From Haloarcula marina (lineage in GTDB: Archaea > Halobacteriota > Halobacteria > Halobacteriales > Haloarculaceae), in the NCBI RefSeq assembly GCF_024218775.1, contig NZ_CP100404.1, positions 2,046,001 through 2,110,000 on the forward strand: 64,000 nucleotides of DNA. Reading direction: 5' to 3'. The notes beneath the pieces were generated by a model. It did not search any database. It was not told where the DNA came from and worked only from the letters and a program-made list of their open reading frames with translations. Made by a program: the position numbers and the translations under genes. This document shows, piece by piece, positions 8,566 to 41,254 of this stretch; the first letter of the stretch is position 1, and each line of letters opens with the position of its first letter.

Positions 8566-9627
8566 TCAGAAGTACTGGTTCAGGTAGTCCGAGGCGTTGT
8601 CCTGCGTGACTTCGAGCCCTTCGATGACGATGGTGTCTTCGACGCTCTCGTCGTTGAGGTAGGCAATCCCGCTCTCGATGGCCGTCGTCACCATCTCCTC
8701 GGGGAGTTGGGCGACGGTCCCGTAGTACTGGTTGTCCGAGAACAGTTGCACCCACGCCTCGGTGCCGTCGATGCCCGTCACCGGGATGGACCTGTTGGCG
8801 TTTCGGAGCGCCTGGTGCGCGCCGAGGGCCATCAAGTCGTTCTGACAGAACACGCCGTCTATCTGGTCGCCGTACTGCGTGAGGAAGTCCTCCATCACGT
8901 TCAGGGCGTTCTGCGTCGAGAACTCGCCGGTCTGACTGGCGAGGCGAGTGAGGCCGTCGTTCTCGCTCACGGCGTTGCTGAACCCCTCTCCGCGGTCGTT
9001 GGTGACGCTCGCGCCGGGCGTCCCTTCCAGTTGGACGACGTTGTAGGTGTCCTGACTGCCAGCGTCCTGCATGAACTGGAGACACAACTCGGTCGAGCGC
9101 TGGCCGAGTTGGACGTTGTCGGAGGCGACGTAGGTGACCGTCTCGCCCTCGGCGACGTTGCGGTCGATGGCGATGACGGGGATACCCGCCTCGTTGGCCT
9201 GCCGGATAGCGTTGATGACCCCCTCGGCCGTGATGGCCGAGATAAGCAGGAAGTCGATGTCGTTCGAGATGGCCGTCTCGACGTTCGAAACCTGCGTACT
9301 CTGGGAGTTGCCCGCGTCGTAGAACGTGGAACTCTGGGCTATCATGCCGTCGCTCTTGGCCTGATTGAACGCGTTCTGCATCCGCGCGAAGAACGTGAAC
9401 TCCAGCGATGGAACGGACAGACCGACGGACGGCGGTTCGCTCGACTCCGTTGTCGAGGTAGTGTCTGTCGTACCGCCGTCGCCGCCGGTGGTGCCAGTCC
9501 CCGTCTCCGTATCGGCGCCGCCGTCGCCACCGTCGCCGCCGTCGCCGCCGCCACAGCCAGCGAGCAGGGCTGTTCCGGCAATCGCGCCGCTCCGAATAAA
9601 CGTCCGTCTGCGAATGTCTCGTGGCAT
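8566..9627 (-). CDS. Sugar ABC transporter substrate-binding lipoprotein (RbsB-like), second set
   Basis: 353 residues with a twin-arginine run (Arg6-Arg8) and lipobox LAGC, Cys25, then a Gly/Asp/Thr linker to about residue 65. The remainder has the type I binding-protein layout: NAFNQAKSDGMIAQ and ISAITAEGVINAIRQANEAGIPVIAIDRNV are typical of ribose/galactose binding proteins. It is transcribed leftwards after the permease gene (71-base gap). Together with the permease at 9699-10685 and the ATPase at 10784-11581 it forms the second CUT2 importer. Confidence 0.9.
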   Translation of the reverse strand: MPRDIRRRTFIRSGAIAGTALLAGCGGGDGGDGGDGGADTETGTGTTGGDGGTTDTTSTTESSEPPSVGLSVPSLEFTFFARMQNAFNQAKSDGMIAQSSTFYDAGNSQSTQVSNVETAISNDIDFLLISAITAEGVINAIRQANEAGIPVIAIDRNVAEGETVTYVASDNVQLGQRSTELCLQFMQDAGSQDTYNVVQLEGTPGASVTNDRGEGFSNAVSENDGLTRLASQTGEFSTQNALNVMEDFLTQYGDQIDGVFCQNDLMALGAHQALRNANRSIPVTGIDGTEAWVQLFSDNQYYGTVAQLPEEMVTTAIESGIAYLNDESVEDTIVIEGLEVTQDNASDYLNQYF

Positions 9628-20450: not shown

Positions 20451-22631
20451 TCACGGCGCGAGCAGTTCTATCGGATGTCGGGGCTGTCGTTCGAGGAGCG
20501 CGTCTATCTGTTCGAGACACGAGGTCCCGCTGGCGACGACCGGGCGGTCCCGAACGTCCTGGGCCTCGAACTGCTCTCGTAGGCGGTCACCAACGTCCAT
20601 GCTGAGTTCGTAGTAGTCACTCTTGTAGCCGAAACTCCCGGCCATCCCGCAACACTCTACCTCTGAGGTCGTCACGTCGTAGCCACACTCCTCCAAGACG
20701 GCGACCGTGTGAGCTTCGAGGCCGAGCGTCCGTTGCTGGCAGTGACTGTGGTAGGCGATTTCGGGCGTCTCGACGCGGCCGAGCGAATCCGCGCTGGCCC
20801 CGTGCTCCAGCAGGCCGTAGACGTACTCCATGACCTCGTAGCTGTGCTCGGCGAGGGTCTCGAAGGTCGCAGTATCGAGCAGTTTCTCGTACTCCGAACA
20901 GAACATCGCGTGGTCGCTCGGTTCGACGACGACCACGTCTCGGCCCGCCTCGACGTGCGGCGAGAGTCCCTCTGCGACCCGTTCGGCGTGGTCCTGTGCG
21001 GTGGCTATCATCCCCTGTGAGAACGGCGCGCGACCGCTGGAGGCGACGGACGGGACGACAACGTCGACGCCGAGTGCTTCGAGGACCTTCACGGCCGCTT
21101 TCCCGCGGTCGACTTGCACGTGGTTCGTGTACACGTCGGGATAGAGAACCGCGCGGCGGTCGGGGTTCGAGACGGTCGACTCGCGCGCGGCGAACCACTC
21201 GACGAACGTCTCGCGCTGGAACTGCGGGAGGTCCCGACGCGGGTCGACGCCGACGGTACGGTCCATGAGCCACCGAGCCGTCTGCGTGTCGGCCAGCCAG
21301 TTCGAGAGGGGGGCGGTGGCGCTCCCGAGTTTCGCCATCGTCTCGAAGTTGCCGAAGAATCGTTTCTGGAGCGGCGCGCCTTCGTCCTCGTCGTCGGGCG
21401 TGAGGCCGTCGACCAGCCACGCCGCCGGAGCGTCCCCATCGCGGTTGATTCGGTCGCGGACGACCGTGTTTATCCACGGAATGTCTATCTTCACTGGGCA
21501 CGCGGTGGTGCAGCGGCTACACCCGGTACAGAGGTCGTTGAACTCGGCGGCGGTGTCGAGGCCTTCGATGCCCGCTTCCCATCCGGTGGCGATGCCGCCC
21601 GAGTACGTCTCGCCGCCGAAGGCGTGGCCGCCGACGCTCTGGAAGTTCGCACACGAATTGGCGCAGGCGGAACAGCGGATACAGTACAGCGTCTCTTCGA
21701 GGTGTTCGTCCTCGCGCATGTCCATGCGGCCGTTGTCGATGAGCACGAGGTGGAAATCCCGGTCGGCGTCGAACTCCGAGAGGGGCGTATCATCGTCCGA
21801 GAAGTCCACGACGGGTGTCTCGACGGGCGGAGTCAACAACGAGACGTAGGAGGTGATGTCCTGTCCGGTCCCCGACCGCCCGATGAGTTCGACGAACGGA
21901 TGAAAGTCGGCCACCGAGGGGACGACTTTCTCGACGCCCGCGACGGTAATCTGGGTGTCTGTCGCGGCCACCGTCTTGCGGGCGTTGCCCTCGCTGGTCA
22001 CCAGCGCCATGGTCCCGGAGTCGGCCGCGAGGAAGTTCGCGCCGGTGATACCGACTTCGCTGTCGACGATTTGCTCGCCGAGTTTCTCGCGAGCGAAGTG
22101 GGTGAGTTCTTCCGCGGTCTCCAGGGGTTCGTCGGGGTCGAAGACCTCGTTGAAGAGGTCGGCGATAGACTCGCGAGATTTGTGGATTGCGGGGGCGACG
22201 ATGTGGGAGGGCGCTTCGTCGGCCACTTGAAGGACCCACTCACCGAGGTCGGTTTCGACCACGTCGACGCCGTCACTCTCCAGTGCCTCGTTGACCTCGA
22301 TTTCCTCGCTGGTCATGGACTTGCTCTTGACGACGCGGTCGGCGTCCCGGTCGGCCACGACCTCGCGAATGTAGGCGTTGGCGTCCGCGGCGTCGTCGGC
22401 GACGTACACCGTCCCGCCGTTCTCGGCGACTGACTCCTGCAACTGTTCGAGGAGTTCGGGGAGTCGCTCGATGGCGTCTTCCTTGATGGCGCGGGCCTCG
22501 GTCTTCAGGTCCTCGTAGTCCTCCAGTTCGGCGACCGAGCGGTAGCGGCCCTCGTTGAAACCGCGCGTGTTCTCCGCGACGGCCGCGCCCTCGGTCCGCA
22601 TCAGTTCTCGAATGTCGTCTGCCTTCGACAT
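20451..22631 (-). CDS. LutB-LutA fusion-like iron-sulfur oxidoreductase, copy 1
   Basis: 726 residues from the ATG at 22631 (a GTG two codons upstream is possible; 22631 gives the same length as copy 2). Residues 1-300 are a LUD domain, then two 4Fe-4S motifs near 317-327 (CIRCSACANSC) and 368-378 (CTGCSRCTTACP), then a cysteine-rich CCG domain with HSHCQQR, ECCGMAGSFGYK and SGTSC. The first CCG site is replaced by SSGRAPFSQG. It should act with LutC in lactate or glycolate oxidation, passing electrons to the membrane. Overlaps lutC copy 1. Confidence 0.88.
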   Translation of the reverse strand: MSKADDIRELMRTEGAAVAENTRGFNEGRYRSVAELEDYEDLKTEARAIKEDAIERLPELLEQLQESVAENGGTVYVADDAADANAYIREVVADRDADRVVKSKSMTSEEIEVNEALESDGVDVVETDLGEWVLQVADEAPSHIVAPAIHKSRESIADLFNEVFDPDEPLETAEELTHFAREKLGEQIVDSEVGITGANFLAADSGTMALVTSEGNARKTVAATDTQITVAGVEKVVPSVADFHPFVELIGRSGTGQDITSYVSLLTPPVETPVVDFSDDDTPLSEFDADRDFHLVLIDNGRMDMREDEHLEETLYCIRCSACANSCANFQSVGGHAFGGETYSGGIATGWEAGIEGLDTAAEFNDLCTGCSRCTTACPVKIDIPWINTVVRDRINRDGDAPAAWLVDGLTPDDEDEGAPLQKRFFGNFETMAKLGSATAPLSNWLADTQTARWLMDRTVGVDPRRDLPQFQRETFVEWFAARESTVSNPDRRAVLYPDVYTNHVQVDRGKAAVKVLEALGVDVVVPSVASSGRAPFSQGMIATAQDHAERVAEGLSPHVEAGRDVVVVEPSDHAMFCSEYEKLLDTATFETLAEHSYEVMEYVYGLLEHGASADSLGRVETPEIAYHSHCQQRTLGLEAHTVAVLEECGYDVTTSEVECCGMAGSFGYKSDYYELSMDVGDRLREQFEAQDVRDRPVVASGTSCLEQIDALLERQPRHPIELLAP

Positions 22632-22633
22632 AC

Positions 22634-23155
22634 TCACTCGGCCTCCACGAGGAGGACGGCTACCGACTTCGGCCCATGTGCACCCCTGACGAGTGCGCCC
22701 ATGTCCGCCGTCGCACTCGGCCCCGTCGCGAAGATGGTGCTCCCGCGCGTCTCCCGAAGGTCGGCGTCTACTGCGGCGATGGCGTCGTCCATCGTCGCCA
22801 GCACGTCTTCTTCGCGGAGGACGACGACGTGGTGGTCGACGAACAGACTAACGAGTTCACTCCCGCGGTCGGTGAGACGGAGACTCAGCGTTCCGTAGTC
22901 GCCGACGCCGAACGCCGCGGCCGTCACACCCGTCGTCGCCTCGCGGAGTTCGACTGGCGTCGGGTCGACAGAGACTGCGGTGTCGTCGAGTGAGAAGTCT
23001 CGGCCGTCGAACTGTCCGTCGAGTGCGACGCCGACCGCAGGTGGGTCGACAGCCTCGTCGACGGCCGCGGCGAACCCCGTCTGAGAGACGGTAGTCACCG
23101 GAACGTCGTACGCCGAGAGTGACGACTCGAACGCGCCGAGCGTGTCAGTAGCCAT
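22634..23155 (-). CDS. LUD-domain protein (LutC-like), copy 1
   Basis: 173 residues. The C-terminal GPSATADMGALVRGAHGP is the LUD/LutC signature, and VSVDPTPVELREATTGVTAA lies mid-protein. LutC is a subunit of the LutABC L-lactate oxidation complex. The stop overlaps or abuts the lutB-A start (TGA at 22634-22636), so the two are coupled. It is clearly less similar to copy 2 (35882-36403) than the LutB-A proteins are to each other. Confidence 0.88.
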   Translation of the reverse strand: MATDTLGAFESSLSAYDVPVTTVSQTGFAAAVDEAVDPPAVGVALDGQFDGRDFSLDDTAVSVDPTPVELREATTGVTAAAFGVGDYGTLSLRLTDRGSELVSLFVDHHVVVLREEDVLATMDDAIAAVDADLRETRGSTIFATGPSATADMGALVRGAHGPKSVAVLLVEAE

Positions 23156-24524: not shown

Positions 24525-25373
24525 TCAGTCCCGGTCGGCGACGACGTGGTTGGTCAGCGTGCCGATACCCTCGATTTCGACGTCCACGCTGTCGCCGGGT
24601 TCGAGCAGTTCGGGCGGGTCGCGGAAGATGCCGACGCCGCCGGGGGTACCCGTCGAGATGACGTCGCCCGGCCGAAGCGTCGTAAACCCGCTGATGTACT
24701 CGACGACTTCGTCGACGCCGAAGATGAACTCCTCGGTGTTCGAAGACTGCATCGTCTCGCCGTTGACGCGGCAGGCCACGTCCAACTCTGTGGGGTCGAG
24801 ATGCTCGTCGGGAACGAGCGTCGGCCCCATCGGCGCGAACGTGTCGTAGCTCTTTCCGCGGAAGAACTGGCCGTCGTCGAACTGCGCATCCCGCCCGCTC
24901 ACGTCGTTGACGGCGGTGTACCCGGCGACGTAGTCGCGGGCTTCCTCTGCCGAAACGTCCTTGGCAGTGCGGCCGATGACGACGCCGAGTTCCACCTCGA
25001 AGTCGACTTCATCGAGTTCCGCAGGATGGACGATGGGGTCGCCGGGGTTGGTGACCGACGTGGCCGCCTTCCCGAACAGCAGCGGTTTCTCGGGGACCTC
25101 TTCGTCCTGTTCCTCTGCGTGGTCGTGATAGTTCAGCCCCACGCAGACGATTTTCCCCGGGCGCGGGACAGGGGCGAGCAGTTTCGCCTCCGCGGCGGGT
25201 ATTGCGTGGTCGGCCATCGCGTCGACGGCGTCTTCGACGACGCGGAGGAATCCGGCGTCGGTCAGTTGTTGGTACGAGACGTCTTCGCGGAGTCCGGCCA
25301 ACGGGACGATGTCGTCGTCCCGGCGGACGCCCCACTGCGGGGCACTGCCAGTGGTGTAGCGAACGAACTGCAT
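24525..25373 (-). CDS. FAH-family hydrolase, 2,4-diketo-3-deoxy sugar-acid hydrolase-like, copy 2
   Basis: 282 residues from the ATG at 25373, chosen to align with copy 1 (both begin MQFVRYT); GTG at 25376 is the alternative. It shares KIVCVGLNYHDHAEEQDEE, DFEVELGVVIG, NDVSGRDAQFD and STGTPGGVGIF with copy 1. It is 46 bases downstream of the IclR gene 25420-26178. Probable role: splitting a diketo deoxy acid such as 2,4-diketo-3-deoxyrhamnonate into pyruvate and lactate. Which copy serves which sugar is unknown. Confidence 0.85.
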   Translation of the reverse strand: MQFVRYTTGSAPQWGVRRDDDIVPLAGLREDVSYQQLTDAGFLRVVEDAVDAMADHAIPAAEAKLLAPVPRPGKIVCVGLNYHDHAEEQDEEVPEKPLLFGKAATSVTNPGDPIVHPAELDEVDFEVELGVVIGRTAKDVSAEEARDYVAGYTAVNDVSGRDAQFDDGQFFRGKSYDTFAPMGPTLVPDEHLDPTELDVACRVNGETMQSSNTEEFIFGVDEVVEYISGFTTLRPGDVISTGTPGGVGIFRDPPELLEPGDSVDVEIEGIGTLTNHVVADRD

Positions 25374-25419
25374 CACCGGGAACTGCCGGCCACTGCTACC
25401 TAACTGTTGTGTTTACCGG

Positions 25420-26178
25420 CTACGAGTACGTCAGGTTCACCTCGATGACGTTCGCACTGCGCAGAATCTGCGCGGGAATCTCGTCGGTGAATCGCTCGCC
25501 CTGCATTCGACTCTTCGGCCCGGAGACACTCACGGCCGCGATAGCGCGGTCGTTCTGGTTCATTATCGGGGCGGCGATACACCGCATCCCCTTGACGCGT
25601 TCCTCGTCGTCGTACGCGTACCCGCGCTCTCTGACCTCGTCGAGCGTCTCGTACAGTTCGTCCTCGTCGGCGATGGTTCGGGGGGTGATTTTCGGAAGAC
25701 CGTGTCTGTCGACGATGGCCTCGACTTCCGTCCGCGGACGGAACGCCATTATCGTCTTCCCAAGCGCAGTCGTTTGGAGGGGGACCCGCATCCCGGCGTG
25801 CGTGTCGAGTTGGACCGCATCGGGGCCGCGCGCCCGATAGAGGAAGACGCCGAGGCCGTGTTCCTCTATCATGAGATTCGAGTGCTCCCCCGTTTTTTCG
25901 GCCAGTTCGTCCACCTCGGGGCGAGCGATGTTGAACACCTTCTTTCGGGAGCGGGCTTGGTCACCGAGTTGCAGGAACCGGGTGCTCACGTGGTACTGGT
26001 CCCCCTCCTTGATGAGGTACTGCTCCCGTTCGAGCGTCCGGAGGTGGTCGTGAACGGTGCTCGTCGGCTTGTCGAGTTCTTGTGCGACCTCCGAGACGCC
26101 AGCCCCGTCGCGTTCGCGGAGTATCTCCACTATCTCCAGCGACACCTTCGCCGCATTGACTGGGACATCGTTGCTCAT
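25420..26178 (-). CDS. IclR-family transcriptional regulator (sugar module 2)
   Basis: 252 residues from the ATG at 26178; the long upstream frame crosses the divergent promoter. Winged-helix segment VSEVAQELDKPTSTVHDHLRTL near residues 25-50, then the effector domain with GKTIMAF and the ending LRSANVIEVNLTYS. The L-rhamnose cluster of Haloferax volcanii has an IclR-type activator, so this is a plausible counterpart (inference). A TCCGT-N5-CCGGA repeat lies at 26213-26227 in its own promoter, and similar repeats precede other genes of the module. Confidence 0.9.
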   Translation of the reverse strand: MSNDVPVNAAKVSLEIVEILRERDGAGVSEVAQELDKPTSTVHDHLRTLEREQYLIKEGDQYHVSTRFLQLGDQARSRKKVFNIARPEVDELAEKTGEHSNLMIEEHGLGVFLYRARGPDAVQLDTHAGMRVPLQTTALGKTIMAFRPRTEVEAIVDRHGLPKITPRTIADEDELYETLDEVRERGYAYDDEERVKGMRCIAAPIMNQNDRAIAAVSVSGPKSRMQGERFTDEIPAQILRSANVIEVNLTYS

Positions 26179-26212
26179 ACGCGAACCATGGATAGACGCT
26201 GAAAAAAGTCTT

Positions 26213-26227
26213 TCCGTCATTACCGGA
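26213..26227. promoter_or_regulatory. Candidate IclR operator, TCCGTCATTACCGGA
   Basis: One mismatch from TCCGG-N5-CCGGA; flanking bases extend the symmetry (TTTCCG...CGGAAA, 26211-26229 region). It lies 35 bases before the IclR gene and about 60 bases upstream of the TATA element of the divergent binding-protein gene, so it could serve both. Confidence 0.5.
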
Positions 26228-26280
26228 AACATGGGAGAGGCGGATACGACGCCGAGTGGACCGTCGGAACCTGTGTGCCA

Positions 26281-26291
26281 ATTTTTAATAC
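26281..26291 (+). promoter_or_regulatory. TATA-like element before the signal-less binding protein
   Basis: TTTTTAATA within an A/T run. Transcription would start near 26315, leaving a leader of about 75 bases before the ATG at 26389. Confidence 0.35.
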
Positions 26292-26388: not shown

Positions 26389-27585
26389 ATGCCCGAGCGA
26401 ACACTGCGGACCCAGGCGGCATCGACAGTCGACATCTTGCACCACTTCGTCGGTCGCGACCAACAGGCGATGGACGCGCTCCTCGAAACTGTCCGACGGA
26501 ATGTCCCCGACGCGAACGTGAGACAGCGGACGAATCCGAACGTGAGCCTCCAGGGGAAGGTCGACATCCTCCGCGGCAAGCCACCGAGCATACTGGAGAC
26601 GTGGCCCGGTCGCAACCTCGAACCGTACATCGACGCCGACGTCGTCGCCGACATCTCCCCGATGTGGGAGGCGGCGGGCTACACGGAAACGTACTTCGAC
26701 CGCGCGAAGGACGCGGTCAGGTTCGACAGCACCTATCGGGCGATTCCGACCAACATGCAGCGCCAGAACAATCTCTTTTTCAACCGCGCTGTCGTCGAGC
26801 GCGCCGGTGTCAATCCGTCGTCGATTACCGACGTCGCTGCGCTCGTGACGGCGTTGGAATCCGTCGAAGACGAAACCGACGCGGCGGGCCTCCTCGTGCC
26901 GCAGAAACGCCCGTGGCCGTCGCTGGACGTGTGGGACATGCTCGTGTTGAGCCACGGGACCGCCGACGCGTACGACCGCCTGTTCCGCGGCGACGACCCG
27001 CAGCGCGACGGGAACCTCGTCCGCGAGGCGCTGTCGTCGCTGGCGACCCTCGCCTCGTTCGTCCCCGACGACGCGCTGTACGACGACTGGCAGGCCGGTC
27101 TGGACCGGTTCGTCGACGGCGAGGCCGCCTTCTTCGCGATGGGCGACTGGGCGGGCGGCGTCCTCAAGAACCGCGACGGATTCGACTACGGGACCGACTG
27201 GGGCTGTGTCGCGTTTCCCGGGACGACCCAGACGTTCCAGTTGGTGATGGACGCGTTCCTCATGCCCTCGACTGCGACGAATACCGAGACGACCGAGGAC
27301 GTGCTTCGGCATGTCGGTTCAGCGACGGCCATCGAGCGCTTCACACGGACCCGCGGCGCGCTTCCACCGCGCGAGGACGTCTCGCTCGACCGCTTCTCGC
27401 CGTTCTTTCGGGACCAGATGGACGCCTACCGCTCGGCGAGGAACCACGTCGACGCGACCCGCGGACTCGGAATCGCCCCCGACCAGCGTGTCGGCGTGCT
27501 GACGGCGATAGCGACGTTCCTGTCCGAAGGGGACGTGGACGCGACGGCGACGCAGATACTGACCGCGCTCGACCGCGAGAAGTAG
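26389..27585 (+). CDS. Extracellular-solute-binding-family protein without signal peptide
   Basis: 398 residues. From residue 12 the sequence has the family 1 carbohydrate-binding-protein pattern (VDILHHFVGRDQQAMDALLE, ILETWPGRNLEPYI, RAIPTNMQRQNNLFFNRAVVERAG, FVDGEAAFFAMGDWAGG). Unlike the other binding proteins here it has no twin-arginine motif, lipobox, hydrophobic stretch or Gly-rich linker, and no in-frame upstream start adds one. It is probably cytoplasmic. It is divergent from the IclR gene with a candidate operator between. It could be a ligand sensor or buffer, or a former transport protein. Confidence 0.8.
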   Translation: MPERTLRTQAASTVDILHHFVGRDQQAMDALLETVRRNVPDANVRQRTNPNVSLQGKVDILRGKPPSILETWPGRNLEPYIDADVVADISPMWEAAGYTETYFDRAKDAVRFDSTYRAIPTNMQRQNNLFFNRAVVERAGVNPSSITDVAALVTALESVEDETDAAGLLVPQKRPWPSLDVWDMLVLSHGTADAYDRLFRGDDPQRDGNLVREALSSLATLASFVPDDALYDDWQAGLDRFVDGEAAFFAMGDWAGGVLKNRDGFDYGTDWGCVAFPGTTQTFQLVMDAFLMPSTATNTETTEDVLRHVGSATAIERFTRTRGALPPREDVSLDRFSPFFRDQMDAYRSARNHVDATRGLGIAPDQRVGVLTAIATFLSEGDVDATATQILTALDREK

Positions 27586-27606: not shown

Positions 27607-28638
27607 CTATCGGAACTCCGGCATGACCTCGTCGGCGAACAGTTCCATCCCGCTGGTGTCGGGGAAGTCGACGAACCAGCACTGGAACTTCGTGACGCCG
27701 GCGTCGATACGTGACTCGATGGCCTCGGCGCACTCCTCGGGCGTCCCCATGACGAAGAACTCCCGGGCGTCCTCGGCGGTGCGAATCGGCGCTTGGTCCT
27801 GATACTCCGCTTCGAACTGGATGGGCGTCATCAGGTCGACGAGGTGGTCGAACTTCTCCTCGTCGCGCGTGCAGATGACGTGACCGTCCCACGAGTACTC
27901 GATGTCGTCCGGGTCGCGGCCGACCGTGTCGCAGTGGTCTTCGATGACACCGATTTTGTGGTTCAGCGTGTCAACGTCGCCGTTGAACACGTCCGTGTTC
28001 CACACGTCGGCGTGCTTCGCGACGAGTTTCAGCGTCACTTGCTCTCCCTGCCCGCCGACCAGAATCGGCGGGTGCGGGTCTTGGACGGGCGTCGGGGCAC
28101 AGGCCGCGTCCTCGATTTGGTAGTGGTCGCCGTCGAAACTCGCGCCGTCGCCGCCGGCGTCCCACATCCGCTTCATCAGCCGAATCGACTCGTCCAAGCG
28201 CATCAGGCGCTCGAACCCGTCGCGGTACTCCCAGCCGTACGCGTCGTATTCGGGTTCGTGCCATCCCGCGCCCAGACCGAGTTCGAGGCGACCGTCGGAG
28301 ATGACGTCCAGCGTCGCCGCCATCTTCGCGACCAGCGCGGGGTTGCGGTAGTCGTTACAGAGGACGAGCGACCCGATGTTCATCTCGTCGGTGAATCCGG
28401 CCATCGCCGACAGGAGCGTCCAGCACTCGTACTCCGCTCGATTCCGTCCGAGCATCAGGTGGTCGGGCGCCCACGCGGCGTCGAAGCCCAGTTCCTCGGC
28501 GAGCAGGATGCCCTCCTTGGTCGTCTCCCAGTCGAGCGCCTCGTACTCCGGCGTGTCCCGGTGGACGGGTTCGTCGTCGCCAGCATCTGGCGCACCGGCG
28601 AAGACGGGGACGTTGTACTCGAAACTGATGTCCGACAT
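27607..28638 (-). CDS. LLM-class flavin/F420-dependent oxidoreductase
   Basis: 343 residues from the ATG at 28638. Luciferase-like barrel features: EELGFDAAWAPDHLML near residue 50, GSLVLCNDYRNPALVAKMAATLDVISDGRLELGLGAGW near 95-130, and PPILVGGQGE near 195. Haloarchaea make F420, and this subclass often uses it. The gene starts three bases past the stop of the rhamnonate-dehydratase-like gene, so the two are coupled. Its reaction in a sugar pathway is unknown; a dehydrogenase step on a sugar or keto acid is one idea. Confidence 0.85.
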   Translation of the reverse strand: MSDISFEYNVPVFAGAPDAGDDEPVHRDTPEYEALDWETTKEGILLAEELGFDAAWAPDHLMLGRNRAEYECWTLLSAMAGFTDEMNIGSLVLCNDYRNPALVAKMAATLDVISDGRLELGLGAGWHEPEYDAYGWEYRDGFERLMRLDESIRLMKRMWDAGGDGASFDGDHYQIEDAACAPTPVQDPHPPILVGGQGEQVTLKLVAKHADVWNTDVFNGDVDTLNHKIGVIEDHCDTVGRDPDDIEYSWDGHVICTRDEEKFDHLVDLMTPIQFEAEYQDQAPIRTAEDAREFFVMGTPEECAEAIESRIDAGVTKFQCWFVDFPDTSGMELFADEVMPEFR

Positions 28639-28640
28639 GG

Positions 28641-29846
28641 TCACTCGATGGCGAAGTGTTCCAGTGCCTCGTGGTTCAGTTCCGTGCTGACGCCGGGTTC
28701 GTCGGGTAGCGGTATCGACCCGTCTTCGGGCGAGGGCGGATTCTGGAAGATGGCGTCGGCGTACGTCGACTCCTGCTCTTCCTGCTGCTCTTGGAACCAC
28801 TCGGGGATGGGGAAGTACTCGGCCATCGGCATGTTGGTGTGCCCGGCGATGGCGTGCAGCGTCGGGTTCGTCCCGGCGTGGGGGATGACCGGCACATCGT
28901 GGACTTCCGCCATGTCAGCGACCTTTTTCATCTCGGTGATACCGCCGACGCGACCCACGTCTGGCTGGAGGATGTCGACGGCTTCCCGTTCGAGCAGTTC
29001 CTCGTGGCCCCACCGCGTGAACTCGTGTTCGCCGCCGGAGATGGGCATCGGCGCGGCCTCCCGGACTTCGGCGTAGCCGTCGATGTCGTCGGCGATGACC
29101 GGTTCCTCGACCCACGCCATGTCGTACTTCGCGAGGCGCTGGGTCATCTTCTTCGCGTACTTTACCGACCAGCCCATGTAGGCATCCCCGGCGATGTCGA
29201 TTTCGTCGCCGACGGCGTCCCGCACGGTCTTGACGATTTCCTCGTTCTTCTTCATACCCGCGCGGCCGTCCTCGGGACCGTGGAGGAAGCGCAACTTCAT
29301 CGCGTCGAAGCCAGCCTCGGCGTACTGGATTGCCTCGCGTTCGAGTTTCTCCATGTCGACGGGGTGGAGGTTGGACGCGTAGGCGGGAATCTCGTCTTTG
29401 GTGGGACCGCCGAGCAGTTCGTAGACCGGTTTCCCGGTCTCTTTGCCGGCGATGTCCCACAGGGCTTGGTCGACGGCGCTGATGGCCATGACGGCGACGC
29501 CTTTTCGCCCGAAGGGGAGCGTCGCGCGGTACATCTGCTCCCAGAGGTGCTCGCGGCGCATCGGGTCTTCACCGACGACGAGTTTCGAGAGTGTCTCTTC
29601 GACGACGGTAGCGATAGCGCCGCTACCCCAGTTGCCGACGCCGACACCGGTGATGCCCGCGTCGGTCTCGACTTCGACGACCACGTCGCCCACCGGTCCC
29701 ATCCACTTCCGGCGGGCCTGGGGGTTCTCGCCGTCGACGTTGCGGTACTCGTCGTACTTCGACATGATGGTGACGAGGGGAAATTCGATGAACTCGCCCC
29801 ACGATTCGTTGCTGACTTTCGTCGCTGAAACGTCTGTAATCTCCAT
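28641..29846 (-). CDS. Enolase-superfamily dehydratase, L-rhamnonate dehydratase-like
   Basis: 401 residues. FPLVTIMSKYDEYRN near residue 22 and the barrel motifs DAYMGW, WVEEPV, SGGEHEF (metal ligands), QPDVGRVGG and IPHAG (Asp-His acid/base pair) recall the bacterial L-rhamnonate dehydratase group, which keeps MSKYRDY, SGEHHG and PDVG..GG at the same places. It would convert L-rhamnonate to 2-keto-3-deoxy-L-rhamnonate. It is different from the two dehydratases at 12-16 kb. The rhamnose mutarotase at 39547 and lactate-oxidation genes nearby support the assignment. Confidence 0.82.
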   Translation of the reverse strand: MEITDVSATKVSNESWGEFIEFPLVTIMSKYDEYRNVDGENPQARRKWMGPVGDVVVEVETDAGITGVGVGNWGSGAIATVVEETLSKLVVGEDPMRREHLWEQMYRATLPFGRKGVAVMAISAVDQALWDIAGKETGKPVYELLGGPTKDEIPAYASNLHPVDMEKLEREAIQYAEAGFDAMKLRFLHGPEDGRAGMKKNEEIVKTVRDAVGDEIDIAGDAYMGWSVKYAKKMTQRLAKYDMAWVEEPVIADDIDGYAEVREAAPMPISGGEHEFTRWGHEELLEREAVDILQPDVGRVGGITEMKKVADMAEVHDVPVIPHAGTNPTLHAIAGHTNMPMAEYFPIPEWFQEQQEEQESTYADAIFQNPPSPEDGSIPLPDEPGVSTELNHEALEHFAIE

Positions 29847-31023: not shown

Positions 31024-32190
31024 TCACGCTTCGACGCTGTCGGCCGACGCTTCGTTCTCGCTCCGCTCGCTGACCAGTCGCCCTTTGAGCAGTTTCTCCG
31101 TGTTCGCGTCGAACAGGTAGACGTGCTCGGGCGCGATGGTGAGCGTCATCTGGTCGTTCGGTTCGAGGTCGTGGAAGGTACCGATTTTCGCTGTCACGTC
31201 GCCGAGGAACGAGGTCCCGTGAACGATAGCCTCTGTGCCGACCGGTTCGACGACGCGCACTTCGGTGTCGAACTCCGGACCGTCGGTGGCTCGGTTCCGG
31301 ACCTGGTACAGGTCCTGGGGACGGAAGCCGACGAGCACCTCGTCGGCGGTTATCTCCCCCTCGACCAGTGCCTTCGGGATGTCGAAGGTCGTCGTGTCCA
31401 TGTCCACGCGGTACGCGTCGCCAGCGTCGCTGAGCGTCCCGTCGAAGAGGTTCATGTCGGGGCTGCCGACGAACTGCGCGACGAAGAGGTTCGATGGCTC
31501 GTTGAACACCTGGTCGGGCGTGCCGAGTTGCTGGAGTTGGCCGTTGTTGAGGACGGCGATTTTGTCGGCGATGGTCATCGCCTCCTCTTGGTTGTGCGTG
31601 ACGTACGCCGACGTGATACCGACTTCCGACTGGAGTTCGTCGATTTCGGTCCGCATCGTCTTCCGGAGTTTCGCGTCCAAGTTCGCCAGTGGCTCGTCGA
31701 ACAGGAACATTCGCGGCTCTCGGATGATGGCCCGCCCGAGCGCGACGCGCTGTTTCTGGCCGCCGGAGAGCTGTGACGGTTTGTTGTTGAGTAGTTCCTC
31801 GATTTCGAGCATCTCGGCGACATCGGTGACGCGGCTGTCGATTTCGTCGTCGGACATCCCGTTGTCCTCGCGTTTGAGACCGAAGCCCAGGTTCTCCCGG
31901 ACGGTCATGTGCGGGTACAGCGCGAAGTCTTGGAACACCATCGCCACGTCGCGGTTACGCGCTTTCACGTCGTTGACGACGGTGCCGTCGAATCGGACTT
32001 CGCCCTCGGTCGGGTCTTCGAGGCCGCCAATCATCCGGAGTGTCGTCGTCTTCCCACAGCCAGACGGCCCGAGCAAGACGAGGAACTCGCCGTCCGGAAC
32101 GTCGATGTGCAGGTCGTTTACAGCGACGACGCCGTCTTTCTCGGGGTCGCCGAACACTTTCGTGACACTATCTAACTCTAGGTGTGTCAT
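31024..32190 (-). CDS. CUT1-type sugar ABC transporter ATP-binding protein (MalK/UgpC-like)
   Basis: 388 residues. Walker A GPSGCGKTTT, Q-loop region MVFQDFALYPHM, signature LSGGQKQRVALGRAI and Walker B FLFDEPLANLDA, followed by the extra C-terminal OB-type (TOBE) regulatory domain from about residue 240 (VGFRPQDLYQV). This layout is typical of the ATPases that serve oligosaccharide and sugar importers with two permeases. It follows the permease genes with a 62-base gap and completes the importer. Confidence 0.92.
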   Translation of the reverse strand: MTHLELDSVTKVFGDPEKDGVVAVNDLHIDVPDGEFLVLLGPSGCGKTTTLRMIGGLEDPTEGEVRFDGTVVNDVKARNRDVAMVFQDFALYPHMTVRENLGFGLKREDNGMSDDEIDSRVTDVAEMLEIEELLNNKPSQLSGGQKQRVALGRAIIREPRMFLFDEPLANLDAKLRKTMRTEIDELQSEVGITSAYVTHNQEEAMTIADKIAVLNNGQLQQLGTPDQVFNEPSNLFVAQFVGSPDMNLFDGTLSDAGDAYRVDMDTTTFDIPKALVEGEITADEVLVGFRPQDLYQVRNRATDGPEFDTEVRVVEPVGTEAIVHGTSFLGDVTAKIGTFHDLEPNDQMTLTIAPEHVYLFDANTEKLLKGRLVSERSENEASADSVEA

Positions 32191-32252
32191 TGAAAATTGC
32201 TACCATCCAGCGCACCTTAAAGCTAGCGTCATGTCGACGCTGACGAAGGGTG

Positions 32253-33218
32253 TTACCCCTTGATTGCGCCGCCGGTCAGCCCCTGCACGAAGTAGCGCTG
32301 GATGTAGGCCAACCCGGCGAGCACCGGAATCGAGACGATGATGGACGCCGCGGCGACCACGTTCCACTGCGTGTTGAACCCCTGCACGAAGGTCAGCAGT
32401 CCCGGCGGGACGGTGAACTTCGAGTTGTCGAGCAGCGTCAGCGCGAACACCAACTCGTTCCACGCGAGGAGGAACGCGAAGATGAACGACGCGATGAGCG
32501 AGTTGCGCGCCATCGGAACGAGCACGTACCAGAACGTCTCGAAGGGGGTACACTGGTCGATGCGCGACGCCTCGATGATGGAGTCGGGGAAGTCGTCGAA
32601 GAACCCCTTCATCAGCCAGACGACGAACGGCGCGGTCATCGCGCCGTAGATGAGGATGAGCGCGAGGTGCGTGTTGAACAGACCGAGCCACGAGATGAGT
32701 TCCCACTCGGGGACCATGATGGCGGTCCCGGGGAACATCAGCGACGCCAGCAAGAGGCTCATCAGTAGGTTCTTTCCGCGGAACTCGCGGCGCGAGAGGA
32801 CGTACGACGCCCCCGTGCCGAGGACGACGGCGATGACGCCCGCCCCGACAGCGACCTTCAGACTGCTGACGACGAGACCGAGCAGGTTGATGTCGATGGC
32901 CGACGTGACCGTGATACCGAACAGGTTCTGGACCAGTCCCGCGTACCCGCCCGCTTGTATCGACGACTCGATGACGAGTCTAAACCCTTCGAGCGAGAAG
33001 TCCTCGGGGAACACCGTCGGCGGAATCTGTTGAATCTCCGCCGTCGTCTTGAACGCGGTCACGACCATCCAATAGAGCGGGAACAGCACGAACACGCCGA
33101 TGACGAGCGTCAGGAGGCCGATGGCCGTCTTCCTGACGTACCCGCCCGCTTTCGAGTCGTAGAGCCACGACTGATTCTTCCGGAACTCCGCCGTCGGGTC
33201 TGAGTCTTGTGTCGCCAT
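32253..33218 (-). CDS. CUT1-type sugar ABC transporter permease (MalG-like)
   Basis: 321 residues, about six membrane segments, with the cytoplasmic EAA loop EASRIDQCTPFETFWYVLVP that docks on the ATPase. The N-terminal 30 residues are soluble. The ATG shares one base with the stop of the MalF-like gene (TAATG), so translation is coupled. It is the second permease subunit of the importer. Confidence 0.92.
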   Translation of the reverse strand: MATQDSDPTAEFRKNQSWLYDSKAGGYVRKTAIGLLTLVIGVFVLFPLYWMVVTAFKTTAEIQQIPPTVFPEDFSLEGFRLVIESSIQAGGYAGLVQNLFGITVTSAIDINLLGLVVSSLKVAVGAGVIAVVLGTGASYVLSRREFRGKNLLMSLLLASLMFPGTAIMVPEWELISWLGLFNTHLALILIYGAMTAPFVVWLMKGFFDDFPDSIIEASRIDQCTPFETFWYVLVPMARNSLIASFIFAFLLAWNELVFALTLLDNSKFTVPPGLLTFVQGFNTQWNVVAAASIIVSIPVLAGLAYIQRYFVQGLTGGAIKG

Positions 33219-34144
33219 TACATTTCACCTTGGACTTTGTCGTAGAACTGGATGTAGTAGTACGAGAACACCAGCAACACGACGAACAGCATCACCGAGA
33301 GCGCGGAGGCGAACCCGACTTCGAAGTCGATGAACGCCGCGCGGTAGATCATGACCGGGAGCGTGCTACTGGAGACGCCCGGACCACCTTTGGTCATCAC
33401 CCACACCATCGAGAAGTTCCTGACGTTGTAGATGAGCATCAGGAGGAAGCCGATGGCGAGGTTGTACTTCATCATCGGGATGGTGATGTAGCGGAACTGC
33501 TCCCACGGCGTCGCGCCGTCCATCCGCGCGGCCTCGTAGAGGTGTTCGTCGATACCCTGCAACGAGGTCAGCGTCAACAGCGCGAACAGCGGCGCCAGCC
33601 GCCAAATCATCCCGATGATGGGCGGCCACAGCGAGAGGTCCGACGACCCCAGCATGACGATGTACTCGTCGATGAGACCCATCTGCACCAGCAGTTCGTT
33701 GACGATACCCTGCGAGCCACCGAACATGAACTGCCAAATCGACGCGCCGACCACCCGCGGGAGGACCCACGGAATCAGCACGATGGCGCTCGCGACGCTC
33801 GTGTACGGGAGCTTTTCGTCTAGAAGCCATCCCATCAGGAAGCCGAGAACGATGGCCGCCAGACTGCCGACGGTCACCCAGACGAACGTGTTCCAGAGGA
33901 CCTGATGGATGTCCGGGTCCGTCCAAATCTCGACGTAGTTCGCGACGCCGACGAACTCCGCTTGGTCGGGCCGGAGGAGGCTCTTGGCGAAGAAACTGGA
34001 GTAAATCGCCTGTGCGATGGGGTAGAGAATGAACACACCCACCAGCGCCATCACCGGCAGTATCGGGAGATACACCTTGACGCCCTCTGGGATGTGCTTG
34101 GTCGCGTTCTCGTACGACGACTGTGCCTGGTCTACGTAACTCAT
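33218..34144 (-). CDS. CUT1-type sugar ABC transporter permease (MalF-like)
   Basis: 308 residues with about six membrane segments. The EAA loop is EAARMDGATPWEQFRYITIP near residue 210. It sits between the binding protein gene (59-base gap) and the MalG-like gene (one-base overlap). Together they form the membrane channel of the importer that feeds this module, perhaps for L-rhamnose or rhamnose-containing sugars. Confidence 0.92.
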   Translation of the reverse strand: MSYVDQAQSSYENATKHIPEGVKVYLPILPVMALVGVFILYPIAQAIYSSFFAKSLLRPDQAEFVGVANYVEIWTDPDIHQVLWNTFVWVTVGSLAAIVLGFLMGWLLDEKLPYTSVASAIVLIPWVLPRVVGASIWQFMFGGSQGIVNELLVQMGLIDEYIVMLGSSDLSLWPPIIGMIWRLAPLFALLTLTSLQGIDEHLYEAARMDGATPWEQFRYITIPMMKYNLAIGFLLMLIYNVRNFSMVWVMTKGGPGVSSSTLPVMIYRAAFIDFEVGFASALSVMLFVVLLVFSYYYIQFYDKVQGEM

Positions 34145-34203
34145 AGTTGAATCGTATCTACCTCGAATATCTATAGTCGTGGTTAAGAATATTTCCCCGG
34201 GGT

Positions 34204-35667
34204 TCAGGCGATCTGGTCGTCGACGACTTCCTGAATGGCGGAGTTGGCGTTGCTACAGGCTTCTTCAGCCGTCGCATCACCCAGCACGACGGGCTGGATG
34301 ACCTGCGTGTTGATGATGCTCTGCATCGAGGCGATGCCCGAGAACGACGGGAACCGCGAGGTTCGCGTGAACAGGTCGTCGTCCTGGTACAGCGTGACGA
34401 GGTCGCCGAACTGGCTCATGAACAGGTCGCTCGGGTCCTCGAACGCGCTCGTGAGCGTCGGAACGCGGCCGCGGATGCCCACGTCGGCGTCCGCGCTGTA
34501 CGTCCACGGTGCGAGTTGTTCGGGCTGGTTCCACCAACTGATGTAGTCGAACGCGGCGTCGCGCTCGGCGCTGCTGGCCGTCCCGCCGCCCATCATGAAG
34601 CCCTGTGCGTTCTGCAGGAGCAGGTCCTGAGGCTGGAAGCTCCCCGACGGGGAGTCCGGCAGAGGCGCGCGGGTGACCGTGTGACCTTCGCCGTCGAGCC
34701 ACGGCTGGGGCGCACCGGTCGTCTGGTAGACGGCGTTCGCGTGGGAGTACGTGATGAAGATACCCGACTCGCCCTCGCGGAGGAGTCGCCCGGCGTCGAT
34801 GTGGTTGTTCTCCGCCATCGAGTCCGGGAACAGGCCGGCTTCCGCGATGTCCTGATAGAGCTTCACGGCGTCGACGAAGCCGGGTTGATCGACGGTGGCC
34901 TCCATCGTCTCGGGGTCGAAGTACCGGCCGCCGTTGGCGTAGACGAAGCCGATGAAGTACCCGGTCGTCAGGCCGAAGTCCGTCCCCGGCGCGGTGATAG
35001 CGGCCGAGACTTCGTCGATTTCCTGCATCTCTTGGCCGAGTTGCAGGAGTTCGGGCCAGTTCCGAGGCGGCGCGTCGAAGCTCGTCTGTTCGAGGTAGTC
35101 CGTCCGGATGTCGATGAACGGTCCGAGGTCGGCGTAGCCGCCGGGGAGGCCCCACTGGCGCTCGCCGCTCGTCTCACCGAGGCCCTCGTAGACCATCGTA
35201 TCGATGTTGGCCTGGACGAAGTGGCTGTTAATCTCCTCCAGCTGGTCGGCGTAGGCGTCTTGGTCGAGCGGCTGAATCGCCTGCGCGCCGACGTAGTCGG
35301 GAATCTGCTGGCACTGGCCCGCCATCACGTCCGGGAGGTTGCTGTTGGCCGCCGCCGAGGCGATAATCTGGTACTTCTGGCCCCACTCTTGGTGCTGGTA
35401 GCTGATGTTGTGGGTCCCGTAGCTGTCGTAGTTGCCGCTGATGTACTCCCGTTCGGCAGGAATCCCGCCGAACAGCCAGAAGTCGAGGTTCTGCGTACCG
35501 GATCCACCGTCGCCGCTGCCGCCGTCACTTCCGCCGCCACCGCCGCCGTTACTTCCGCCGTCACCGCCGCCCCCGCCACAGCCAGCGAGGCCAGCAGCCA
35601 TTGCGGTTCCGAGGCCGGTCAGATATCGTCGCCTGTTGAGCCGAGTCCGCGAGCTATCGTTTGTCAT
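34204..35667 (-). CDS. CUT1-type sugar ABC transporter substrate-binding lipoprotein
   Basis: 487 residues. Twin-arginine signal (Arg12-Arg14), lipobox LAGC with Cys30, and a Gly/Ser/Asp-rich linker to about residue 60. The rest follows the family 1 binding-protein pattern (DVMAGQCQQIPDYVGAQAIQPLD; AFDYISWWNQPEQLAPW). It should be tethered outside the membrane and capture the sugar for the permeases. First gene of the operon; an AT-rich TATA zone lies at about 35698-35727. Confidence 0.9.
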   Translation of the reverse strand: MTNDSSRTRLNRRRYLTGLGTAMAAGLAGCGGGGGDGGSNGGGGGGSDGGSGDGGSGTQNLDFWLFGGIPAEREYISGNYDSYGTHNISYQHQEWGQKYQIIASAAANSNLPDVMAGQCQQIPDYVGAQAIQPLDQDAYADQLEEINSHFVQANIDTMVYEGLGETSGERQWGLPGGYADLGPFIDIRTDYLEQTSFDAPPRNWPELLQLGQEMQEIDEVSAAITAPGTDFGLTTGYFIGFVYANGGRYFDPETMEATVDQPGFVDAVKLYQDIAEAGLFPDSMAENNHIDAGRLLREGESGIFITYSHANAVYQTTGAPQPWLDGEGHTVTRAPLPDSPSGSFQPQDLLLQNAQGFMMGGGTASSAERDAAFDYISWWNQPEQLAPWTYSADADVGIRGRVPTLTSAFEDPSDLFMSQFGDLVTLYQDDDLFTRTSRFPSFSGIASMQSIINTQVIQPVVLGDATAEEACSNANSAIQEVVDDQIA

Positions 35668-35881: not shown

Positions 35882-36403
35882 ATGACAGAGAGCCGCTCGG
35901 CCTTCGAGACATCTCTCGACGAGTTGGGTGTGACAGTAACCCGCACAGAGGAATCGACCATCGCGGCGGCGCTCACCGAAACCGTCGTCGACCCGGCCGT
36001 CGGCGTCTCACTCGGGGACGCGTTCGGAAGCGACGGGTTCACGCTCGCCGACGCGGGGGTGTCCGTCGACCCGACGCCAGTCGAACTCCGCGAGGCGACG
36101 ACCGGTGTAACGGCCGCCGACCTCGCAGTCTCCGACTACGGGTCGCTCGTTCTGACGCTGGACGACCGCGCGAGCGAACTGGTGAGTCTGTTCGTCGAGC
36201 GCCACGTTGCCCTCGTCCGTGCGAGCGACGTCGTCGACGACATGGACACCGCCATCGAAACCCTCGACGCGACATTCAATCGGACTGGAGGGAGCGCGGT
36301 TCTCGCGACGGGACCGAGCGCGACGGCGGACATGGGCGCGCTCGTCCAGGGGGCGCACGGCCCCGAAACAGTCCACGTCGTCATCATCGAGGAGGGTGCG
36401 TAA
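35882..36403 (+). CDS. LUD-domain protein (LutC-like), copy 2
   Basis: 173 residues, same length as copy 1. VSVDPTPVELREATTGVTAA and GPSATADMGALVQGAHGP are shared, while the N-terminal third is divergent. Two bases separate its stop from the lutB-A ATG. It is expected to work with that protein in oxidising lactate, a product of the diketo-hydrolase pathway, to pyruvate. Confidence 0.88.
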   Translation: MTESRSAFETSLDELGVTVTRTEESTIAAALTETVVDPAVGVSLGDAFGSDGFTLADAGVSVDPTPVELREATTGVTAADLAVSDYGSLVLTLDDRASELVSLFVERHVALVRASDVVDDMDTAIETLDATFNRTGGSAVLATGPSATADMGALVQGAHGPETVHVVIIEEGA

Positions 36404-36405
36404 GG

Positions 36406-38586
36406 ATGGCGAGCGCCGACGAGATTCGAGAACTGATGCGGACGGAAGGCGTCGCTGTCGCGGAGAACACGCGCGGTTTCAACGAGGGCCGGTACCGCTC
36501 GGTCGCCGAACTGGAGGACTACGAGGACCTAAAGACCGAAGCCCGCGCCATCAAGGAAGACGCCATCGAGCGCCTCCCCGAACTCCTCGACCAACTGACC
36601 GAGGCCGTCGAAGAAAACCGCGGGACTGTGTACGTCGCCGACGACGCTGACGACGCCAACGCCTACATTCGCGAGGTGGTCGCCGACCGGGACGCCGACC
36701 GCGTCGTCAAGAGCAAGTCCATGACCAGCGAGGAAATCGAGGTCAACGAGGCACTGGAGAGTGACGGCGTCGACGTGGTCGAAACCGACCTCGGCGAGTG
36801 GGTCCTCCAAGTGGCCGACGAAGCCCCCTCCCACATCGTCGCCCCCGCCATCCACAAGTCCCGCGACAGCATCGCAGAGTTGTTCAACGAGGTCTTCGAC
36901 CCCGACGAACCCTTGGAGACGGCCGAAGAACTGACTCGTTTCGCTCGCGAGAAACTCGGCGAACAAATCGTCGACAGCGAAGTCGGTATCACCGGCGCGA
37001 ACTTCGTCACCGCGGACACCGGAACGATGGCGCTGGTGACCAGCGAGGGCAACGCCCGCAAGACGGTGGCCGCGACGGACACACACGTCGCGGTCGCTGG
37101 CGTCGAGAAGGTGATTCCGACCGTCAGCGACCTGCACCCGTTCGTCGAACTCATCGGCCGCTCTGGGACCGGACAGGACATCACCTCCTACGTCTCGTTG
37201 TTGACTCCGCCCGTCGAGACACCCGTCGTGGATTTCGAGGACGACGAGACGCCCCTCTCGGAGTTCGAGAACGACCGGGATTTCCACCTCGTGCTCATCG
37301 ACAACGGCCGCATGGACATGCGCGAGGACGAACACCTCGAAGAGACGCTGTACTGTATCCGCTGCTCGGCGTGTTCGAACTCGTGTGCGAACTTCCAGAG
37401 CGTCGGCGGCCACGCCTTCGGCGGCGAGACGTACTCGGGCGGCATCGCCACCGGATGGGAAGCGGGCATCGAGGGCCTCGATACCGCCGCCGAGTTCAAC
37501 GACCTCTGTACCGGATGTAGCCGCTGTGTGAACGCCTGTCCCGTCGGCATCGACATCCCGTGGATAAACACGGTCGTCCGCGACCGCATCAACCGGGAGA
37601 AAGACGAACCGGTAGAGTGGCTGGTCGACGGCCTCACGCCCGACGAGGAAAACGAAGGCGCGCCGCTCCAGAAGCGCTTTTTCGGCAACTTCGAGACGAT
37701 GGCGAAGGTGGGGAGCGCCACCGCCCCCCTCTCGAACTGGCTGGCCGACACCGGTCTGTCGCGCCGAGCGATGGCGTGGGCGTTGGACATCGACCCGCGT
37801 CGGGACCTCCCGCAGTTCCAGCGCGAGACGTTCGTCGAGTGGGTCGCCGCGCGCGAGTCGACCGTCTCGAACCCCGACCGCCGCGCGGTTCTCTATCCCG
37901 ACGTGTACACGAACCACGTGCAAGTCGACCGCGGGAAAGCGGCCGTAAAGGTCCTCGAAGCGCTGGGCGTCGACGTTGTCGTCCCGTCCGTCGCCTCCAG
38001 CGGTCGCGCGCCGCTCTCACAGGGGATGATAGCCACCGCGCAGGACCACGCCGAACGCGTCTCCACCGCCCTCGCCCCACATATCGAGGACGGCCGCGAC
38101 GTGGTCGTCGTCGAACCGAGCGACCACGCGATGTTCCAGCGGGAGTACGAGAAACTGCTCGGCGACCGCGAGTTCATGACCCTCGCCGAGAACAGCTACG
38201 AGGTCATGGAGTACGTCTACGGCCTGCTGGTGCACGGGGCCGACGCGGATGCCCTCTCGACGGTCGAGGACGGACGACTCGCCTACCACAGTCACTGCCA
38301 GCAACGGACGCTCGGCCTCGAAGCACACACTGTCGCCGTCTTGGAGCAGTGTGGCTACGACGTGACGACTTCCGAGGTGGAGTGTTGCGGCATGGCCGGG
38401 AGTTTCGGCTACAAGGGTGACTACTACGAACTCAGCATGGATGTCGGTGACCGCCTGCGCGAGCAGTTCGAGGCCGACGACGTCAGGGACCGCCCAGTGG
38501 TCGCCAGCGGCACCTCCTGTCTCGAACAGATTGACGCGCTCCTCGAACGACAGCCCCGACATCCGGTAGAACTGCTCGCCGAGTAA
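36406..38586 (+). CDS. LutB-LutA fusion-like iron-sulfur oxidoreductase, copy 2
   Basis: 726 residues from the ATG at 36406; the longer frame upstream is a shadow of lutC. Architecture as in copy 1: LUD domain, two 4Fe-4S motifs (CIRCSACSNSC, CTGCSRCVNACP), and a C-terminal CCG domain with ECCGMAGSFGYK. Long stretches are identical to copy 1; the differences cluster around residues 445-465 and 560-625. Role: electron-transferring subunit of lactate (or glycolate) oxidation. Copies 1 and 2 face away from each other. Confidence 0.88.
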   Translation: MASADEIRELMRTEGVAVAENTRGFNEGRYRSVAELEDYEDLKTEARAIKEDAIERLPELLDQLTEAVEENRGTVYVADDADDANAYIREVVADRDADRVVKSKSMTSEEIEVNEALESDGVDVVETDLGEWVLQVADEAPSHIVAPAIHKSRDSIAELFNEVFDPDEPLETAEELTRFAREKLGEQIVDSEVGITGANFVTADTGTMALVTSEGNARKTVAATDTHVAVAGVEKVIPTVSDLHPFVELIGRSGTGQDITSYVSLLTPPVETPVVDFEDDETPLSEFENDRDFHLVLIDNGRMDMREDEHLEETLYCIRCSACSNSCANFQSVGGHAFGGETYSGGIATGWEAGIEGLDTAAEFNDLCTGCSRCVNACPVGIDIPWINTVVRDRINREKDEPVEWLVDGLTPDEENEGAPLQKRFFGNFETMAKVGSATAPLSNWLADTGLSRRAMAWALDIDPRRDLPQFQRETFVEWVAARESTVSNPDRRAVLYPDVYTNHVQVDRGKAAVKVLEALGVDVVVPSVASSGRAPLSQGMIATAQDHAERVSTALAPHIEDGRDVVVVEPSDHAMFQREYEKLLGDREFMTLAENSYEVMEYVYGLLVHGADADALSTVEDGRLAYHSHCQQRTLGLEAHTVAVLEQCGYDVTTSEVECCGMAGSFGYKGDYYELSMDVGDRLREQFEADDVRDRPVVASGTSCLEQIDALLERQPRHPVELLAE

Positions 38587-40760: not shown

Positions 40761-40922
40761 GAAAATTCACTCCAACTACTGGCCACGTAGAGCACGTGCG
40801 TACGTACCACACCACCGCATTCAGGTGGGGACATCAACACGTTCAAGCGCCCTTTCGGTTTTCCCGTCACTAATCTCGACATTGTGAATTTATTCCGCCG
40901 TGGAGCAACCGGTCGTAATTTT

Positions 40923-40937
40923 TCCGGTGATACCGGA
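40923..40937. promoter_or_regulatory. Candidate IclR operator TCCGGTGATACCGGA
   Basis: Perfect arms; symmetry extends to 6 bases (TCCGGT / ACCGGA). Its centre is 20 bases from that of the next site, about two helical turns. Confidence 0.55.
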
Positions 40938-40942
40938 GCATT

Positions 40943-40957: not shown

Positions 40958-41182
40958 TTGCGGACTGGCGACAGCGACCGGTCGGTAGTCGATTGTTGGC
41001 GCGTCCCGGCCACAGTCAGGGAAGGGGAACAGGACCGAAGAGCCGTAAGATACCCGAAATCGACACAGTAAACGCTTCCAGTCGAGACGGCGGTGACCAT
41101 CTGGCTCTCGCGGTTATCGGCGATTGACTCCGCTCCGTTCGTGCCTCGATTCGAAATCCACGCGTCCGAGGCGATGATTTCG

Positions 41183-41197
41183 TCCGGTATCGCCGGA
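41183..41197. promoter_or_regulatory. Candidate IclR operator TCCGGTATCGCCGGA
   Basis: Perfect 5-base arms, more than 500 bases from the nearest recognised start codon. Confidence 0.5.
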
Positions 41198-41254
41198 AAT
41201 GCAGGGCTGAAGTAGTGCTACCGCCGCAGGTCAGCAGTCTGAGACCTCCATAAT

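Follow-up and report, generated by a model that had tools for sequence, protein, structure and literature searches.

The window analysed here, the whole stretch of 64,000 nucleotides at positions 2046001–2110000 of the 3.74 Mb genome of Haloarcula marina, encodes on its forward strand a solute-binding protein of 398 residues without a leader (26389–27585), which we call cSBP1. The GC composition of its three codon positions (0.66/0.46/0.87) indicates that it is a real coding gene. cSBP1 matches the Pfam families SBP_bac_8 (5e-16) and SBP_bac_1 (2e-11), and its profile matches the Thermus glucose-binding protein ttGBP (2b3b) and the Pseudomonas protein ppGBP (5dvf/5dvj) at 5e-51. The same two proteins are the nearest structures to its AlphaFold model, with Z ~30 over ~350 residues, in a model of modest confidence (pLDDT only 63, from an alignment of 7 sequences). 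cSBP1 is a full-length, two-lobed, CUT1-type sugar-binding fold. Its frame is closed by an in-frame stop 15 nt 5' of the ATG, only ~14 residues precede the first strand (start codons were assigned by inspection), and no export signal or lipobox was found upstream in its own frame or in either of the other two. Each of the window's three remaining binding proteins (1228–2481, 8566–9627 and 34204–35667) has a twin-arginine lipobox leader. The sequence-only reading had described an intact binding fold lacking an export signal, among binding proteins that carry Tat lipobox signals, and both observations are confirmed. A possible TATA element of cSBP1 (TTTTTAATA, 26282–26290, forward strand) is proposed from its position only; TTTTAATA also occurs in the corresponding intergenic region of G015, a second genome with this gene. 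No Rfam matches were found in the window.

Divergent from cSBP1 lies a gene for an IclR-family regulator (25420–26178, reverse strand), identified by NCBIfam IclR-type models and by orthologues that are 81–90% identical in 6 Haloarcula-group genomes. The intergenic region contains a palindrome, TTCCG-N7-CGGAA (26212–26228), whose distance is 34 nt to the start of IclR and 160 nt to that of cSBP1; it is the sole exact match to this motif within the window and a likely IclR operator. On the other side, an F420-type LLM oxidoreductase gene converges with cSBP1 (27607–28638, reverse strand) and is followed on the same strand by an enolase-superfamily sugar-acid dehydratase (28641–29846; best model L-rhamnonate dehydratase, below cut-off). 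Beyond IclR, also on the reverse strand, is an FAH-family hydrolase (24525–25376), for which the best model is 2,4-didehydro-3-deoxy-L-rhamnonate hydrolase, again below cut-off. The cluster includes a complete ABC importer on the reverse strand (31024–35667) that consists of an ATPase, two permeases and the Tat-lipobox binding protein at 34204–35667, and it also matches the NCBIfam L-lactate dehydrogenase model LdhH below cut-off. Judged from these matches, the neighbourhood of cSBP1 resembles an L-rhamnose-type diketo-hydrolase catabolic cluster. The wider region, 20451–40537, has a gene content like that of L-rhamnose/L-fucose diketo-hydrolase pathways, with two LutBC-like lactate-oxidation pairs (20451–23155 and 35882–38586), two FAH-family hydrolases, an amidohydrolase lactonase (38599), a mutarotase-like gene (39547) and an SDR gene (39851).

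To place cSBP1 among its homologues, we built a maximum-likelihood tree of 58 proteins, from all of which leaders had been trimmed beforehand. The 33 leaderless and 25 leadered proteins were split on one branch with 100/100 support. The leadered homologues, from the same and related genomes, have twin-arginine leaders, which in nearly every case include a lipobox. The leaderless homologues start 10–20 residues ahead of the first strand; in many, an in-frame stop closely precedes the start codon. Their maximal 17-residue hydropathy within the first 45 residues averages 0.40, against 1.26 in the leadered proteins. Among the 391 genomes of the class, all high-scoring leaderless members belong to the Haloarculaceae, the family of the window. 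The leaderless proteins form a monophyletic Haloarculaceae subfamily of CUT1 sugar-binding proteins, and the simplest reading of the tree is that the export signal was lost once, after which the subfamily diversified. Genes for ABC permeases or ATPases lie within 1.5 kb of 21 of the 25 leadered genes and of 0 of 28 leaderless ones, which argues that the leaderless proteins are no longer part of ABC transport. cSBP1 itself has no linked permease partner of its own, the importer of the cluster having a separate binding protein.

Positive genomes encode one or two leaderless binding proteins. That of H. marina has a paralogue, cSBP2, which is 38% identical to cSBP1. In a scan of named genome contigs, cSBP1 alone gave no matches, and an alignment of the paralogue cSBP2 matched Haloarcula amylovorans, Halomicroarcula rubra, Haloarcula pellucida, Halapricum hydrolyticum, Halapricum sp. 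CBA1109, Halorhabdus salina and one Halobacteriales MAG. In the Halorhabdus group, the leaderless gene is flanked by a GH4 gene on one side and by split transketolase/transaldolase genes on the other, an arrangement conserved in 3 genomes (L051, L052 and L123).

We then compared the ligand pockets, taking the residues from the alignment with ttGBP and ppGBP and not from the AlphaFold model. The identities of the sugar contacts in these two proteins are in part our assumption. In ttGBP numbering, Trp8, His119, Asp278, Lys312 and His348 are all kept in 25 of 25 leadered haloarchaeal proteins. Of the 33 leaderless proteins, 28 have lost the stacking Trp8, but His119, Asp278, Lys312 and His348 are each kept in 28–30. 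Like ttGBP and ppGBP, the leaderless family has the full-length fold and most of the polar pocket positions; unlike these exported ABC partners, it has neither an export signal nor an ABC partner. The pocket looks as if the subfamily still binds a ligand. In cSBP1, D288 is kept, and Q124, R322 and R358 replace His, Lys and His, a set of replacements common to the window and G015 copies. Given these changes and the loss of the stacking Trp in most members, ligand binding may have been altered or lost. An anionic intermediate from the adjoining pathway is no more than a plausible guess at the ligand of cSBP1.

The sequence-only reading had suggested that cSBP1 is a cytoplasmic sugar sensor or a partner of IclR. 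The first part is supported, and made more precise, by the subfamily, which is leaderless and in which most members keep the polar pocket. As a partner, cSBP1 would be a cytoplasmic sensor or co-regulator of IclR: by binding an intermediate of the pathway, it would modulate or buffer the IclR inducer. It is divergent from IclR, within a rhamnose-type cluster, in both the window and G015, and the Lys-to-Arg and His-to-Arg changes in the two pockets would suit an anionic intermediate. However, G015 is the only genome with a cSBP1 orthologue at the same place (60–62% identity). Eight of the ten genomes with the IclR cluster lack cSBP1 there; in these, IclR is 70–90% identical, the LLM oxidoreductase gene adjoins it, and four (G004, G017, G023 and G028) have no leaderless binding protein at all. 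IclR proteins moreover carry an effector domain of their own, and the leaderless genes other than cSBP1 are not neighbours of IclR. The palindrome is found at the same site upstream of IclR in G015 and also, without a leaderless gene, at L112, L116 and L117. As it also precedes IclR in genomes without cSBP1, it is most simply predicted to be IclR's own operator. A promoter region and candidate operator shared by the two genes had been proposed; the divergent arrangement and the palindrome are both there, but the palindrome lies in the IclR promoter and occurs without cSBP1. By this distribution, IclR can evidently do without cSBP1, and a partnership between them is poorly supported and rather unlikely.

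Further palindromes of the IclR type were seen elsewhere. Two with one mismatch lie near the start of the SDR gene (40922–40938 and 41182–41198) and could be further IclR sites, at an expectation of 4.75 such matches per window by chance. In G017, an exact palindrome, TTCCGGTATAACCGGAA, at L118:6049–6065 lies 140 nt upstream of a Zn-dehydrogenase gene and is likely a site of the IclR regulon.

A gene neighbourhood with IclR was thus not found to be general, and the leaderless family instead tracks a chemotaxis transducer. cSBP2 (G000:C1:1986292–1987479) is divergent from a gene for a methyl-accepting chemotaxis transducer, or MCP (PF00015, E ~1e-40). Such divergent pairs of a cSBP2-type gene and an MCP gene occur at 12 loci in three genera. 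The pair is kept in genomes of the Haloarcula group and of Halapricum; G036 has it too, with other flanking genes that differ. The intergenic gap is 102–202 nt in 8 measured pairs. In Haloarcula-group genomes, a gene for a 416-residue enolase-superfamily protein lies directly downstream of cSBP2 (L035 10641–11891; also L037 and L039–L044), and this gene is not found there in Halapricum. All members of the MCP family have two N-terminal hydrophobic segments with a short loop between them, and no extracellular sensor domain was found in any member, which would leave a binding protein outside the cell without a docking site. Each positive genome encodes one such MCP. cSBP1 adjoins no MCP, and the MCP of its genome is encoded 86 kb away. 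The first membrane helix of the MCP contains an invariant His and, four residues on, a Gln in a nine-row alignment, as do nearly all other members (L143–L168). These residues are unusual for a plain anchor, and the hairpin itself could sense something, as MpcT senses membrane potential.

Across ~450 genomes, some of them MAGs, 34 contained both a leaderless binding protein and this MCP, and none contained only one. The MCP orthologues are well separated, scoring at least 617 bits against 317 for the next MCP among 98 relatives. The MCP was present in 15 of these 98 relatives, in 25 of 391 members of the class and in 27 of 116 members of the family, each time in the same genomes as the leaderless proteins. 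Among the binding-protein matches, that of G431 is partial and lies beside the MCP gene on the same contig, and that of G308 contains one in-frame TAG. The co-occurrence is seen within a single archaeal family, and physical linkage or shared ancestry accounts for part of it. Several genera nevertheless have both genes unlinked, hundreds of kb apart in G032, G043, G051 and G055. On a tree of the EF-2 marker, the joint state of the two genes changes ~7 times, at least 5 of which are forced by well-supported branches. G441 lacks both genes and has nine other MCPs, and its congeners carry both, unlinked. In G352, a MAG, no MCP of any kind was detected and the leaderless protein is also absent. Given the marker, the distances in the MCP and leaderless trees show a partial correlation of 0.42, with paralogues mixed and a permutation that was not strict; this is a weak test, and our proposal does not draw on it.

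We propose that, at the level of the family, the leaderless proteins are cytoplasmic receptors for a dedicated MCP, made up of a membrane hairpin and a cytoplasmic signalling domain without an input domain of its own, and that cSBP1 is a pathway-specific member signalling through the MCP 86 kb away; on balance, we consider this somewhat probable. Leaderlessness, monophyly, loss of ABC linkage, the divergent pairing of cSBP2 with the MCP and the exact co-occurrence are read from the genomes themselves. The cytoplasmic location, the ligand, the docking and the use of the MCP by cSBP1 are what we infer. A binding protein in the cytoplasm would close on an intracellular sugar or sugar-acid, and the closed form would dock on the cytoplasmic part of the MCP and alter CheA signalling, such that the cell would steer by sugars it has already imported. 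cSBP1 would serve as the receptor for the rhamnose-type cluster, using the single MCP. Its signalling through the MCP follows from family membership, as cSBP1 adjoins IclR and not an MCP in both genomes that have it, and it may instead, or also, act on the neighbouring catabolic cluster. More tentatively, several cytoplasmic sugar-binding proteins, each for a different sugar or intermediate, might converge on one MCP without a ligand-binding domain, and cells would then navigate by the success of uptake and metabolism.

The family could also consist of cytoplasmic sugar scavengers, chaperones or enzyme-like metabolic proteins with no signalling role. Sugar enzymes do lie beside several members, namely the enolase-superfamily gene in Haloarcula and the transketolase/transaldolase and GH4 genes in Halorhabdus-type genomes. 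However, G036 keeps the pairing with the MCP without those enzymes, and a purely metabolic role leaves unexplained why the genomes with leaderless genes are exactly those with one family of MCPs, making this reading quite unlikely. It is very improbable that cSBP1 is exported by hitchhiking or by another route and serves the ABC importer encoded in the cluster as an additional binding protein: that importer has its own Tat-lipobox protein, the leaderless genes do not adjoin ABC genes, and the N-terminus of cSBP1 has no hydrophobic segment. Finally, a truncated or decaying exported protein is hardly credible, even though closely related proteins of this fold are exported as lipoproteins and the stacking Trp is lost, as the leaderless clade is monophyletic with intact ORFs in many genomes, and the changes between the window and G015 copies at codon positions 1/2/3 (0.29/0.21/0.47) are coding-like. 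Homologues with signals that would expose a truncated copy, or a frameshift upstream, were sought and neither was found; with no leader in the upstream frames and the whole clade leaderless, truncation or frameshift of an exported protein was rejected.

The proposed pairing of cytoplasmic receptor and MCP has partial counterparts. In Halobacterium salinarum, the binding proteins BasB and CosB co-purify with their transducers BasT and CosT, according to the part of PMC3579733 that cites Kokoeva 2002. Both binding proteins are described as extracytoplasmic, and other putative binding proteins of that location co-purify with Htr6 and Htr18 (PMC3579733). As in those systems, cSBP2 and its MCP pair a separate ABC-type binding protein with a haloarchaeal MCP; unlike in them, an export signal is missing from the binding protein and an extracellular domain from the MCP. 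Car of H. salinarum is a soluble cytoplasmic arginine transducer without a transmembrane helix, as stated in the part of PMC3579733 that cites Storch 1999. Car resembles the proposed system in directing chemotaxis towards an intracellular nutrient, but it is a single soluble transducer, whereas the system proposed here has a transducer anchored in the membrane and, as the presumed receptor, a distinct protein with the binding-protein fold. MpcT, the membrane-potential transducer, is listed with two transmembrane helices (PMC3579733). It is thus a two-helix transducer like the hairpin MCP, but is not known to depend on a binding protein. We take its extracellular part to be small. In bacteria, cytosolic proteins with this fold make up ~1% of Pfam hits to solute-binding proteins (PMC9602780). 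They share the fold and the absence of a signal peptide with the family described here, but are individual curated exceptions in bacterial proteomes. A literature search that covered few subscription papers found no description of an archaeal, MCP-linked leaderless CUT1 subfamily.

Binding proteins are the textbook extracytoplasmic receptors, and what would be new here is one that acts from inside the cell. If the proposal is true, it would show how a surface receptor can move indoors, and it would provide a concrete genetic system for testing metabolism-dependent taxis in archaea. The leaderless family also offers a candidate function for genes readily mistaken for truncated ABC binding proteins.
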